NCBI RefSeq assembly: GCF_002953715.1
Contig: NZ_CP025012.1
Coordinates: 868,001 to 932,000 of the forward strand
DNA from: Rhizobium leguminosarum
GTDB lineage: Bacteria; Pseudomonadota; Alphaproteobacteria; Rhizobiales; Rhizobiaceae
Length of the DNA stretch: 64,000 nucleotides
Direction of reading: 5' to 3'
The notes under the pieces are model-generated. The model did not search any database, had not been told where the DNA came from, and saw only the letters and a program-made list of their open reading frames with translations. The stretch's first letter is position 1. Each line of letters begins with the position of its first letter. Of the stretch, positions 55,479-59,648 are shown in pieces. A program made the translations under genes and the position numbers.

Positions 55479-56999
55479 TCACCCTCCAACCGAAGCAAAG
55501 AACCCTTCCGGGCTTTCCACCTCCACCAGCCGCTTCTTCTCGATCAGCCAGAACCGGTTTCCCACCGCCCGCACGAAACTGCGGTCATGCGAGACCAGCA
55601 GGCAGCTCGCCTCGTGCGCCATCAACTCGCTCTCCAGCGCCTCCTGTCCCTCGATGTCGAGATGGTTGGTCGGCTCGTCGAGGAGGTAGAAGTTCGGCTC
55701 CGTCAATCTCAGCACCAGCATGCCGAGCCGCGCTTTCTGGCCGCCGGACAGCTGGCCGATCGGTTTTGCCTGCATGTCGATCGTCATGCCGGCGCCCGCC
55801 AGCAAGGCGCGGGCCCGCTGGTCGCCGACATCGAAGCGGCGGATGATCGTGCCGATCGGCGTGTCGGTGTCGGCAAGATCGGCAAGCGCCTGGTCGCCAT
55901 AGCCGAGCACGAGCGACGGCGTCGCCTTGATGCTGTCGCGCACCGTCTCCGGTCTTTCGATCGCCTGTTTCAACATCGACACCAGCCGTGACTTGCCGGC
56001 GCCGTTGAGGCCGAGGAGCACAATGCGGTCGCCCTGGCAGATGAACTGCCGGCCGGTCTTGAACAGCAGCGTTCCATCCGGCGTCGTCACCGCCGCATCC
56101 TCCACCGTCACCAGCACCTTGGCATGGGTACCGCGGTTGGCAAGCCGGATGGCGCCGGCCGAGCGCTCCAGATGCGCCGGTTTTGCCGCATCCTCCAGCT
56201 TATCCGCCCGCTGCTTGAGCTGCTTCGTCTTGACGACGAGCAGGTCGCTGCCGGAGTTGATGCCGATATTGTTGAGCTTCGCAGCCTGCTTGCGCAATTG
56301 CTCCGCCACCTTCATGTCGCGCTCGTAGCGCCGGGCTTCGGAAGCGTCGGCCTCATCGAGGGCGGCGCGTGCCCTGGTATAGGGCAGGGCGAAGACCGGC
56401 GATTGCTCCGGCCGCAGAAACAGCGTCCGGTTGGTCGTCGCATCGAGGAAGGCGCGGTCGTGGCTGGACAGGATAACCGGCACGTCGCGCGGCAGCGCGT
56501 TCAGCCAGCCCTCCAGCTGCGCGATCTTTTCGAGGTCGAGATGGTTGGTCGGCTCGTCGAGCAGAAGCACATCGGGCTCGCTGACCCAGGTGCGGGCAAG
56601 CATGGCAAGCCGCTGCCATCCGCCGCTCAACTGCTTCAGCGGCCGGCCGCGCATGACCTCCGGCACGTCGAGCGATTCCAGCACCACGTCGACGCGCCAG
56701 CTTTCGCTTTCGGCCTGATCGGCCGGCAGCGCCTGCAGCACCGCATCGTAGAACGGCGTGTCGAAAAGGGCAGGTGGCACATTCTGCGCGACATGGCCGA
56801 CGGTCAGTCCGCGCGCCTTGGTGATCTCGCCCTCGCTCGGCTCCAGCGCGCCGGTGATGCAGGCAAGCAGCGTCGATTTCCCCCGCCCGTTGGCGGCGAC
56901 GAGGCCGATGCGATCACCGGCATTGACGACGAGATTGAGCTTGGAAAACAAAGGATTGCCCAGCGTCACGCCGAGATTGCGGATATTGATGAGTGTCAT
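55479..56999 (-). CDS. ABC-F ATPase, candidate ribosome-protection protein
   Basis: 506 residues from the ATG at 56999. Two ABC domains without membrane segments: Walker A AANGRGKS (about 35-42), signature LSGGWQRL, Walker B LLLDEPTNHLDLEK; then a ~80-residue linker rich in Arg and Lys, second Walker A LNGAGKS, LSGGQKARL, YLLDEPTNHLDIEG. ABC-F proteins act on the ribosome, and several remove antibiotics from it. A 23-codon leader with +X+ motif and exclusive RNA stems precedes it, which suggests drug-induced expression. The ribosome binding site AGAGAACG is weak, as expected for a gated gene. Confidence 0.93.
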   Translation of the reverse strand: MTLINIRNLGVTLGNPLFSKLNLVVNAGDRIGLVAANGRGKSTLLACITGALEPSEGEITKARGLTVGHVAQNVPPALFDTPFYDAVLQALPADQAESESWRVDVVLESLDVPEVMRGRPLKQLSGGWQRLAMLARTWVSEPDVLLLDEPTNHLDLEKIAQLEGWLNALPRDVPVILSSHDRAFLDATTNRTLFLRPEQSPVFALPYTRARAALDEADASEARRYERDMKVAEQLRKQAAKLNNIGINSGSDLLVVKTKQLKQRADKLEDAAKPAHLERSAGAIRLANRGTHAKVLVTVEDAAVTTPDGTLLFKTGRQFICQGDRIVLLGLNGAGKSRLVSMLKQAIERPETVRDSIKATPSLVLGYGDQALADLADTDTPIGTIIRRFDVGDQRARALLAGAGMTIDMQAKPIGQLSGGQKARLGMLVLRLTEPNFYLLDEPTNHLDIEGQEALESELMAHEASCLLVSHDRSFVRAVGNRFWLIEKKRLVEVESPEGFFASVGG

Positions 57000-57008
57000 G
57001 ATCGTTCT

Positions 57009-57194
57009 CTGGTCTTGACCGGGTGGTCGGCACGATCCGGGGCGTTCAGCCATCACGGGATTGCGCGGTTCGAGCCCGGGAAATGAGAGGAATGCGCGCT
57101 GTCAGCTGCGGCGTCGCATTGGCCACGAAGGGCAGACCAGGAAGAGATGTCGAGAAACGGTCTCTGGTCAGCCCTGCAAACGCATTTGCAGGGC
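57009..57194 (-). promoter_or_regulatory. Attenuator-like RNA switch before ABC-F gene
   Basis: Four segments of the minus-strand RNA. 1 (57194-57185) GCCCUGCAAA pairs perfectly with 2 (57180-57171) UUUGCAGGGC. The extended 2 (57175-57164) AGGGCUGACCAG pairs with 3 (57140-57129) CUGGUCUGCCCU with one mismatch in 12. The CUGGUCU of 3 pairs with AGACCAG (from 57014) beside the ABC-F ribosome binding site (segment 4). Pairings 1:2 with 3:4 and 2:3 exclude each other, as in ermC. Confidence 0.65.
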
Positions 57195-57239
57195 GTTGAC
57201 GGGACCACGCTGGCGATTAAACCGAAAATAATATTGCAT
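57168..57239 (-). CDS. Leader peptide, 23 aa, before ABC-F gene
   Basis: Begins MQYYFRFNRQRGPVNALQM and ends RLQG. The ATG is preceded by AAGGAGG with an 8-base gap, the strongest ribosome binding site in the neighbourhood. Arg9-Gln10-Arg11 is a +X+ motif at the distance from the N-terminus at which macrolides stall ribosomes on ErmDL-type leaders. The last eight codons overlap a perfect 10-bp hairpin. It lies 168 bases before the ABC-F gene on the same strand. Function is inferred from this arrangement. Confidence 0.7.
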   Translation of the reverse strand: MQYYFRFNRQRGPVNALQMRLQG

Positions 57240-57379
57240 TGCGTGATCCTCCTTTCTCAAAAGCTTGCGCGATCCAAATAACATTGCCCGCAAAAAGAGG
57301 CAAGGGAGCCGGACGTGCGCCGATTTCCAGCCACAAACCGTGCATAGAGGATTCGGGGCCGACCGGGAGAACAAGACGC

Positions 57380-57884: not shown

Positions 57885-59480
57885 TTATCCGGCCGAGTCG
57901 CCAGCAGCCAGCTCCAGCCGCCGCGTTATGCCGATACTCCTAAGGAAGGTCTCGTCGTGGCTGACGACGATGAGCGCGCCGTCGTAAGCGCGCAGTCCGG
58001 CCTCGACCGCGGCGATCGAGTCGATGTCGAGATGGTTGGTCGGCTCGTCGAGGATCAACAGCGGCGGCGGTGCCGAGCCGAGCACGCAGGCAAGGCCCGC
58101 CCGCAGCAATTGCCCGCCGCTCAGCGTCGATACGGTCTGCAGCGCAGCATCGGCCCTGAACATGAAGCGGGCAAGGGCCGCCCGGCAGGTATTTTCATCG
58201 GAAAGCGGATTGATCCGGCGGAAATTGTCGCGGATCGAGGCCGACGGATCGAGCAGGCTGACCTTCTGATCGAGCATCGAGAAGGCAGTCATGACGCTGA
58301 CCGTGCCGACCCAGGGTTTCAACTCGCCGGTGACGAGCGCCAGCAAGGTGGTCTTGCCCGAGCCGTTGCGGCCGGTGACGGCGATGCGCTCCGGTCCCGC
58401 CACATCGAAGGAGAGATCGCGGATGACGGGATCACCCGGCTGGTAGCCTGATGTCACGCCATCCATCCTCAGCACGATCTTGCTGGCGGGCAGCGCGGTC
58501 GGCGACAAGGTTACCGACAAGGGCTGGAGGATCTCGATCTTCTCGCGCGCTGCCCTTGCCTCTTCCAGGGCCTGGGCGCGCCGGCGTTCAGCGAGACGGG
58601 CATTGTCGCCACCCGTCGTTTCGCTCCGCTCCTTCATGCCGCCGAGCATGATGCGCGGTATGCCGCCCTTGGCGGCCATCTTCCGCCCGGTGCTGTCCCT
58701 CTGCGCCTGACGCTCCACCGTCGCCTGCGCCTTTCTCGCAACCTCGGCCATGCGTTTTTCGGCTTCAGTGAGATCATGCTGTGCCGTCGCGAGCTCGAGC
58801 GCCTTGCGTTCGCGATAATGGCTCCAGTTGCCGCCGTAGCGCGTGGCAGCGAGCGAGGTCAGTTCGACGATCGCGTCGACACTTTCGAGCAGTTCCCGGT
58901 CATGGCTGACGATGATGGCGCCGGCCCGCCAACCTGACATCAGCGCCATCACCGCCTCGCGGCCTTCGCGATCGAGATTGTTGGTCGGTTCGTCGAGCAG
59001 CAGGAAATCCGGTTCGGTAAAGATCAGCGCCGCCAGCCCGGCCCGTGTGCGCTGCCCGCCGGAGAGTGCCGCAAGCGGCGTCTCCGGTGACGCGTCGAGC
59101 CCGGTCCGAGTGAGCGCTGCGGCAATGCGCGCCTCCAGCATCCAGTCCGCCGATGCAAGCTCGTCGGCCGTTGCCCCGCCGGCTTCGGCGCGGCGAAGAA
59201 TAGCGAGCGCATCGGTCACGCCGAAGAGACCGGCAATCGTTTCGTCAGATGCTATCTGAACGCTCTGCCGCAGCACGCCGAGGCTGCCGCTGACGGATAC
59301 GGTGCCCGAATGAGGATGGAGCTCACCTGAGGCAAGCTTCAGCAGCGTCGTCTTGCCGACGCCGTTGCGCCCGACGAGACCGGTCCGTTCCGCCCCGAAG
59401 CTCAGGTCGAGATTGGAAAAAAGCGGCCGCCCGTCAGGCGCGGACCACGAAACTTGGGAGAGGGTGATGGATGCAGGCAT
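57885..59480 (-). CDS. ABC-F ATPase, second
   Basis: 531 residues from the ATG at 59480 (MPASITLSQVSWSAPDG). Two ABC domains: GLVGRNGVGKTTLLKL, LSGGQRTRAGLAAL, LLLDEPTNNLDREG; a long basic and Glu-rich linker (ERKALELATAQHDLTEAEKR...KMAAKGGIPRIMLGGMKER), then VTGRNGSGKTTLLALV, LSGGQLLRAGLACV and LLILDEPTNHLDIDS. It is not a close copy of the other ABC-F gene. The linker length points to a ribosome-bound factor. A 38-codon frame overlaps its start; see findings. Confidence 0.93.
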   Translation of the reverse strand: MPASITLSQVSWSAPDGRPLFSNLDLSFGAERTGLVGRNGVGKTTLLKLASGELHPHSGTVSVSGSLGVLRQSVQIASDETIAGLFGVTDALAILRRAEAGGATADELASADWMLEARIAAALTRTGLDASPETPLAALSGGQRTRAGLAALIFTEPDFLLLDEPTNNLDREGREAVMALMSGWRAGAIIVSHDRELLESVDAIVELTSLAATRYGGNWSHYRERKALELATAQHDLTEAEKRMAEVARKAQATVERQAQRDSTGRKMAAKGGIPRIMLGGMKERSETTGGDNARLAERRRAQALEEARAAREKIEILQPLSVTLSPTALPASKIVLRMDGVTSGYQPGDPVIRDLSFDVAGPERIAVTGRNGSGKTTLLALVTGELKPWVGTVSVMTAFSMLDQKVSLLDPSASIRDNFRRINPLSDENTCRAALARFMFRADAALQTVSTLSGGQLLRAGLACVLGSAPPPLLILDEPTNHLDIDSIAAVEAGLRAYDGALIVVSHDETFLRSIGITRRLELAAGDSAG

Positions 59481-59648
59481 GGATATGGATTTCCCGGTTG
59501 GCAAGGCGAACTGGCGTTGCGATCGGGTTGAAATCCATTGCGGCACACATCCTGTTGAATTGGTCGATGGCAGATAATTTAGGGAATAAAGGCTGAAGGT
59601 TCAAGAAGGAGAACGATCTTGCATTCTTCGGGGAAGGCCGTGGGAAGT

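Follow-up and report, generated by a model that had tools for sequence, protein, structure and literature searches.

A candidate stall-sensing leader with ermC-like architecture upstream of an ABC-F gene in Rhizobium leguminosarum and other Alphaproteobacteria

The analyzed window, a stretch of 64,000 nucleotides from Rhizobium leguminosarum (contig NZ_CP025012.1), carries on its minus strand a gene for an ABC-F ATPase of 506 amino acids (55479..56999, ATG at 56999), recognized by its domains, predicted fold and homology and presumed to be the regulated gene. Its start sits 240 nt downstream of the start of a short leader ORF on the same strand (57168..57239), which consists of 23 codons (MQYYFRFNRQRGPVNALQMRLQG, then stop) and is kept upstream of the ABC-F gene in relatives. 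The leader is preceded by an extended Shine-Dalgarno (SD) sequence, AGAAAGGAGG (57248..57257, minus strand), in which AAGGAGG (57254-57248) leaves a gap of 8 nt to the leader ATG. Duplex energies, computed with what we take to be the anti-SD sequence, were -16.0 kcal/mol for the leader vs. -3.5 for the ABC-F start in the window, with mean values of -13.9 and -3.7, respectively, over 117 representative loci (described below), and an SD of at least 4 nt for a start codon was found in 115 of these. As in ermC-type systems, a short ORF with its own strong ribosome site lies upstream of the regulated gene. The initial annotation of this DNA had described the 23-codon minus-strand frame, its AAGGAGG 8 nt before the ATG, and an Arg-Gln-Arg motif at codons 9-11 (57207..57215, minus strand), all of which are present as claimed.

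The deduced ABC-F protein comprises two ABC domains; its linker is helical (helices 207-249 and 252-272; mean pLDDT 90.7), and an alignment of 43 homologues showed no variation at the linker-tip residues Asn248, Ser251, Asp252, Lys257 and Gln260. ABC domains in tandem and a long linker of helices agree with the organization of antibiotic-resistance (ARE) ABC-F proteins, a feature that is also common to housekeeping ABC-Fs. The best sequence match in the PDB was 8buu (VmlR2), and a fold search (VIA-align) returned Z scores of 34.4 for VgaL, 34.1 for VmlR2, 33.4 for VgaA-LC, 32.6 for PoxtA and 32.2 for EttA. The closest sequence and fold matches include resistance ABC-Fs, yet EttA scored only 2.2 Z units lower, so that the fold alone cannot decide between a resistance and a housekeeping role. 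The NCBIfam model NF000355 (ribosomal protection-like ABC-F) gave 287.9 bits, below its cut-off of 380. The gene was detected in 15 of 387 genomes of the class and 57 of 297 of the family (both at E <= 1e-120), and in the genus of the window it was near-universal (36 of 37 genomes), not patchy; variable presence within genera has been given as a hint of a resistance ABC-F (PMC6723617). Leader and gene were also located on plasmids with different neighbourhoods, for example on pSymA of Sinorhizobium meliloti M162, a plasmid that was typed as conjugative, and on p2 of Pararhizobium qamdonense (locus L283, from 4017, and locus L284, from 4020, respectively); both loci carry the leader ORF, which is not among the gene-table rows listed. 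The product is a probable ribosome-protecting protein. A second ABC-F-like gene of 553 amino acids (57885-59546, minus strand; NF000355 at 343.8 bits, below the cut-off) lies just upstream of the leader stretch, with an oppositely oriented ORF between them.

Four RNA segments, all on the minus strand, were delimited from within the leader ORF up to the ABC-F start. Segment 1 (57185..57194, codons 16-19) and segment 2 (57171..57180) are the 5' and 3' arms of a hairpin with a perfect 10-bp stem and a loop of 4 nt. Segment 2 with its extension (AGGGCTGACCAG, 57164..57175) can pair with segment 3 (CTGGTCTGCCCT, 57129..57140) over 11 of 12 bases, the exception being a U-U, and segment 3 has an alternative 7-base partner in AGACCAG, located shortly before the ABC-F start (segment 4, 57009..57015, read from 57015 to 57009). 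The minimum free energy (MFE) fold from segment 1 onward combined 1:2 with 3:4, with seven of the seven segment-4 bases placed on segment 3. The folding energy of the whole leader was moderately low (z = -1.95; 9 of 200 shuffles folded equally well). The pattern of hairpin plus stop occurred once in the window and in none of 100 shuffles; this, together with the conservation of segments 3 and 4 and the retention of the hairpin in distant loci, led to the rejection of a chance hairpin. The three pairings proposed by the initial annotation (the perfect 1:2 hairpin, 2:3 over 11 of 12 bases and 3:4 over 7 bases) were all found where it had placed them, and the leader ORF, its SD, the 1:2 hairpin and the 2:3 and 3:4 pairings were confirmed to exceed chance.

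The leader region matched 36 of the 37 genomes of the window's genus, as the initial annotation had expected of a genuine leader, and 76 of 394 genomes of the family, in 26 of 109 genera. A further match to this region, the 37th, came from another family and was without an adjoining ABC-F gene. Scanning a species-level genome collection with a DNA pattern made of hairpin and stop only yielded at least 118 loci; among the 118 listed, 117 preceded an ABC-F orthologue of the same orientation by 59-226 nt, and the last one is located where its stored locus ends. The genera among the matches listed include Rhizobium, Mesorhizobium, Sinorhizobium/Ensifer, Agrobacterium, Bradyrhizobium, Bosea, Roseomonas, Sulfitobacter, Yoonia and Nisaea. 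Loci were also fetched through the ABC-F protein alone, as a step to reduce ascertainment; the leader was present in 10 of 13 such loci from the class sample (two of these ten with Gly-Ser or Gln-Pro in place of Gly-Pro) and in 37 of 38 further loci from the family and the order. The system had been presented as that of a rhizobium, and rhizobia do carry it, but this description is too narrow, as other alphaproteobacterial families carry it as well.

Loci L001-L105 were chosen by a match to the leader DNA and L106-L223 by the hairpin pattern, so that their hairpin bases are partly fixed by selection; L232-L282 were those fetched via the ABC-F protein alone, of which eight (L245-L252) are from family genomes missed by the leader-region search. 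L104 was dropped, being without an ABC-F gene, and an order-search match whose contig starts inside the gene (G918) was left out. Seventeen of the 273 loci with a located ABC-F gene failed a strict leader search: L233, L234, L244 and L277, with no leader; L086, L140, L141 and L221, of Agrobacterium type without Gly-Pro; L238 (Gly-Ser), L243 (Gln-Pro) and L016 (a broken pair); L150 (no ATG, GTG or TTG in range) and L202 (frame closed upstream); L097 (misplaced gene start); and L122, L166 and L171 (locus ends). The ABC-F homologues in the four loci without a recognisable leader offer a natural comparison for constitutive expression. The 117 representatives, 67 close and 50 distant, were picked at a 6-mer similarity below 0.30 and all pass the strict search.

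Residue conservation was evaluated in 193 distinct loci aligned on the leader stop. Of these, 101 had been scored for core-peptide similarity, a criterion in favour of Gly-Pro, whereas the other 92 came from the hairpin pattern by itself. The most constant part of the peptide was the Gly-Pro pair (codons 12 and 13 in the window; 57201..57206, minus strand), located two codons before the hairpin: Pro was kept in 188 of 192 loci, with CCC, CCG, CCT and CCA all in use, and Gly in 186 of 191, mainly as GGC or GGT. In the loci found by the hairpin pattern only, Gly was present in 86 of 90 and Pro in 88 of 91. Arg occupied the position three before Gly in 163 of 191 loci. Among 153 nearest-neighbour pairs, substitutions were mostly synonymous at the codons three before Gly (23 synonymous : 3 nonsynonymous) and one before Gly (20 : 5); Gly-Pro was required in this test, and its Gly and Pro rows are therefore no evidence for these residues. 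The two residues past Pro were variable, and the peptide was conserved up to Pro. Moreover, the ORF stop falls inside the hairpin in 14 of 256 loci, with the hairpin retained, and in L237 the peptide is wholly different after Gly-Pro-Val while the hairpin persists; conservation after Pro therefore belongs to the RNA. Such a pattern, with selection as far as the stall but not past it, is what an arrest peptide would show. Gly stood at codons 9-13 in the 117 representatives, with the start picked by SD, and leaders were mostly 21-24 codons long (lengths from 101 of 105 loci; L010, L088, L097 and L104 excluded). Four Agrobacterium-type loci (L086, L140, L141 and L221) kept the hairpin and had Gly-Pro replaced (RQIRH, RQLCH), representing a changed or decayed sensor, and L238 and L243 have Gly-Ser and Gln-Pro, respectively, in its place.

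The distribution of residues bears on two further explanations of the leader. Under amino-acid starvation, slow Arg or Pro codons would serve as the sensor of an attenuator, as the Arg-rich leader might suggest; however, Pro is retained whichever of its four codons encodes it, there is only a single Pro, and the target is an ABC-F gene, not a biosynthetic one, which makes this explanation very improbable. The initial annotation had placed a macrolide-induced stall at Arg9-Gln10-Arg11 according to the +X+ rule, +X+ (Arg/Lys-X-Arg/Lys) being a known macrolide arrest motif of ErmDL and MefAL (PMC10314930). The window does contain the motif, yet it preceded Gly-Pro in only 64 of the 117 representatives (167 of 256 loci), and Arg-Gln-Arg was replaced elsewhere among the representatives by RQF, RTH, LQH, HTF and others. 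The motif that marks +X+ leaders such as ErmDL and MefAL was thus not conserved over the 117 representatives as a set, and the +X+ site was rejected as a universal stall.

The consequences of a stall were explored with a folding model in which the first x nt of the hairpin were hidden, as by a ribosome, and the RNA was refolded; initiating ribosomes and kinetics are ignored in this model. If a distance of 16 nt between P-site codon and toeprint is assumed (PMC9226507), a ribosome in the window with Gly12 in the P site would hide 4 nt, with Pro13 7 nt, with Gln10 none, and at the stop codon the whole hairpin. A ribosome that has codon 10 in the P site would extend to about nt 43, short of segment 1 (nt 46-55), and the P site must have advanced at least to codon 12 for segment 1 to be reached. 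The predicted probability of 3:4 pairing in the window was 0.97, 0.50 and 0.00 at x = 0, 2 and 4, and again 0.97 at 24, so that 3:4 was lost only with 2-4 nt of segment 1 hidden. In this model the switch is thrown by a stall at Gly-Pro but not by one at Arg-Gln-Arg; given this failure and the presence of the +X+ motif in little more than half of the representatives, the stall site was moved to Gly-Pro. The stall site of the initial annotation is probably wrong, and a +X+ stall in the window is, all told, quite improbable.

Hiding part of segment 1 raised the predicted unpaired fraction of segment 4 in the window from 0.12 to 0.41, and that of the stretch from -15 to +5 from 0.39 to 0.45-0.58. 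With 4 nt hidden, five of the seven segment-4 bases re-paired elsewhere in the MFE fold, and the unpaired fraction of the start codon fell from 0.47 to 0.16-0.43; it is not predicted to open. For the 67 close representatives the mean unpaired fraction of segment 4 was 0.167 at x = 0, 0.211 at 2, 0.300 at 4, 0.31-0.33 at 5-16 and 0.168 at 24. At x = 7 it rose by more than 0.1 in 34 of these 67 and dropped below -0.1 in none, as compared with 15 up and 17 down among 134 spacer-shuffled controls (p = 6e-11). In the 50 distant representatives the mean increased from 0.324 to 0.404 at x = 5, with a rise above 0.1 in 16 of 50, and drops below -0.1 occurred in 1, 2 and 4 of 50 at 5, 7 and 10 nt hidden. 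The switch from 3:4 to 2:3 is clear in the folding model, and the predicted opening of the ABC-F start is only partial. The earlier proposal that a stall frees segment 2 and opens the ABC-F start agrees with the model in its first part, the predicted change of pairing; for its second part the model predicts a release of segment 4 in part, without an opening of the start codon itself in the window.

The stems were further evaluated by comparison among loci. The usual hairpin arms were GCCCTGCA/TGCAGGGC, and distant loci had GCCCCACG/CGTGGGGC, GCCCCGCG/CGCGGGGC and GCCCTGTA/TACAGGGC; over 13 distinct stems the pairs between segments 1 and 2 were kept via two-sided substitutions at pairs 5, 6, 7 and 8, with a non-standard pair at pair 8 in three of the 13. 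At least 10 of 11 consensus bases of segment 3 were present in 170 of the 193 distinct loci (0.4% of mononucleotide shuffles), and at least 9 of 10 of segment 4 in 138 of 193 (a score of 8 is attained by 0.6% of shuffles, and 9 or more by none of those listed). Covariation of 2:3 and 3:4 was sought in the well-conserved set and gave no excess signal, segments 3 and 4 being too strongly conserved, and distant homologues were taken instead. Compensatory changes, which the initial annotation would have taken as support in all three stems, were found for 1:2 in distant loci, but not for 2:3 and 3:4 within the conserved set. When own and swapped partners were compared in the 50 distant representatives, the own pair was better both for 3:4 (p = 0.00025) and for 2:3 (p = 0.0024), and no difference was seen in the 67 close ones (p = 0.25 and 0.63, respectively). 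The best 3:4 helix overlapped the 2:3 partner in 80 of the 117 representatives vs. 39.9 expected (close: 55 of 67 vs. 21.7; distant: 25 of 50 vs. 18.5). Against dinucleotide-shuffled tails the 3:4 helix showed a modest excess (mean z 1.17; 26% of the 117 at <=5%). An RNAduplex test gave mean z values of -1.2 for 2:3 and -2.3 for 3:4, with none of 40 shuffles as good in 13 of 193 loci for 2:3, which is weak, and in 69 of 179 for 3:4, which is better. We think that the weakness for 2:3 comes from long gapped duplexes that inflate the shuffles, and an ungapped helix search replaced this test. Judged from sequence and folding, the stems appear to be mutually exclusive, with one of them predicted to mask the target ribosome site, as in ermC-type systems.

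Terminator-like sites between leader and gene were at chance level, in 7 of the 117 representatives vs. 3-8 in five shuffles, and none was found between leader and gene in the window, where the only two detected lie upstream of the leader (57284-57304). As in ermC-type systems, no intrinsic terminator separates leader and gene. Intrinsic transcription attenuation was rejected as the main mechanism, and with terminators at chance, translational attenuation is the simplest reading of the mode of control. Control at the level of transcription, by attenuation or by Rho, either in place of translational attenuation or in addition to it, seems improbable on the same grounds, even if the partial opening predicted for the start codon in the window leaves room for it and the ABC-F genes vmlR and msrD are known to be subject to transcription attenuation (PMC9226507, PMC10314930).

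The reading favored here is that of a stall-sensing translational attenuator controlling the ABC-F gene, to which a probability of about 0.58 is assigned. In unstressed cells the leader would be translated to its stop and the 1:2 hairpin would re-form; segment 3 would pair with segment 4, as in the predicted fold, and the weak ABC-F ribosome site would presumably stay masked. A ribosome stalled with Gly12 or Pro13 in the P site would cover the first 4-7 nt of segment 1, and segment 2, once freed, would pair with segment 3, releasing segment 4 and allowing the ABC-F protein to be made. The most likely cause of the stall would be an antibiotic that targets the ribosome and acts, in concert with a short nascent chain terminated by Gly-Pro, near the exit tunnel or the peptidyl transferase centre, and the ABC-F protein may then clear the ribosomes and thereby shut its own switch off. 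The protective protein would be produced only when needed, on a ribosome stall that probably signals an antibiotic. Confidence in this reading was lowered because the start codon of the window is not predicted to open and because the element is near-universal in the genus. Its parts differ in strength: a leader and RNA architecture operated by stalling is highly probable, and an antibiotic as the signal is somewhat better than an even bet. A drug is favored as the trigger because of the kind of gene and of precedent.

The main rival is a self-arrest relieved by the ABC-F protein: the leader would stall intrinsically at Gly-Pro, like SecM, the ABC-F protein (or EF-P) would resolve the arrest, and the switch would measure ABC-F activity, not a drug. 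Gly-Pro is indeed near-invariant, the element occurs in nearly every genome of the window's genus, and MsrD represses its own leader-controlled expression (PMC10314930). However, Arg stands mostly three and one before Gly, and not two before as in SecM (5 of 117 representatives); a Gly at codon 9-13 leaves a chain too short for the SecM N-terminal module; and the gene is rare over the class, unlike a housekeeping factor. Self-arrest is accordingly considered unlikely.

Within the reading of an antibiotic-sensing attenuator, a more specific and tentative proposal, which we hold to be doubtful, is that of an old alphaproteobacterial family in which a tunnel-bound natural product and a basic chain of 9-13 residues together block formation of the Gly-Pro bond, with the ABC-F protein protecting the ribosome and resetting the switch. 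To our knowledge, such a Gly-Pro arrest mechanism has no counterpart in any resistance leader. In rhizobia, a tunnel-binding antibiotic of rhizobial origin could act as the natural inducer; one example is phazolicin, the site of which overlaps the macrolide site (PMC6783444). If the attenuator reading is right, ermC-style attenuation of a ribosome-protection gene would be widespread among Gram-negatives of soil and plants, and its arrest core would differ from those of the resistance leaders known to us. It would provide a direct readout of the antibiotics encountered by these bacteria, a likely function for an as yet unassigned group of ABC-F proteins, and a new candidate arrest sequence for structural work.

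The initial annotation had noted that it knew of no such system as described, and this holds for the sources searched: Rfam returned no match at gathering score (the sole weak match, to a miRNA, had E 0.89, lay on the other strand and was far below that score), so that a known Rfam element was rejected, and no paper describing this leader was found in the titles and abstracts of the open-licence literature. The passages of two Sinorhizobium meliloti papers that came up (PMC12218461, PMC10117765) name no ABC-F leader.

Several known systems share parts of the architecture. Basic residues followed by Gly-Pro recall SecM and RAPP-type arrest peptides (PMC10951299, PMC12992588), and by analogy an arrest with Gly in the P site and Pro in the A site is a natural guess for the present leader. 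The chain is very short in comparison, no RAGP occurred among the 117 representatives, and the Arg that stands two positions ahead of the P-site residue in a RAGP or RAPP-like core was present in only 5 of them. In ermC, stems 1:2 and 3:4 alternate with 2:3, and the leader core is IFVI. The present system resembles ermC and its leader ErmCL in the strong-SD leader ORF, in the exclusive 1:2 and 3:4 vs. 2:3 stems, and in the 3:4 stem predicted to mask the start region of the target; it differs in that the target is an ABC-F gene and not a methyltransferase gene, the core is Gly-Pro, segments 1 and 2 lie inside the leader ORF, and the hosts are Alphaproteobacteria. The ermC system is also shown in a figure of PMC10219788. 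Stall-dependent upstream ORFs before ABC-F genes are established in Gram-positives (vmlR, PMC9226507; msrD, PMC10314930). The vmlR leader of Bacillus subtilis likewise places an ABC-F gene under an upstream-ORF stall and has an SD-sequestering hairpin, but it combines a three-codon upstream ORF with an intrinsic terminator (PMC9226507), unlike the present leaders of mostly 21-24 codons without terminator excess. MsrDL also is a drug-sensing leader peptide of an ABC-F gene, with negative feedback shown for msrD; however, its peptide is MYLIFM, it stalls at the stop codon and it acts by transcription attenuation (PMC10314930). Set beside these systems, the leaders described here make up a widespread family, apparently undescribed to date, of putative ermC-like attenuators that precede an ABC-F gene in Gram-negative bacteria.
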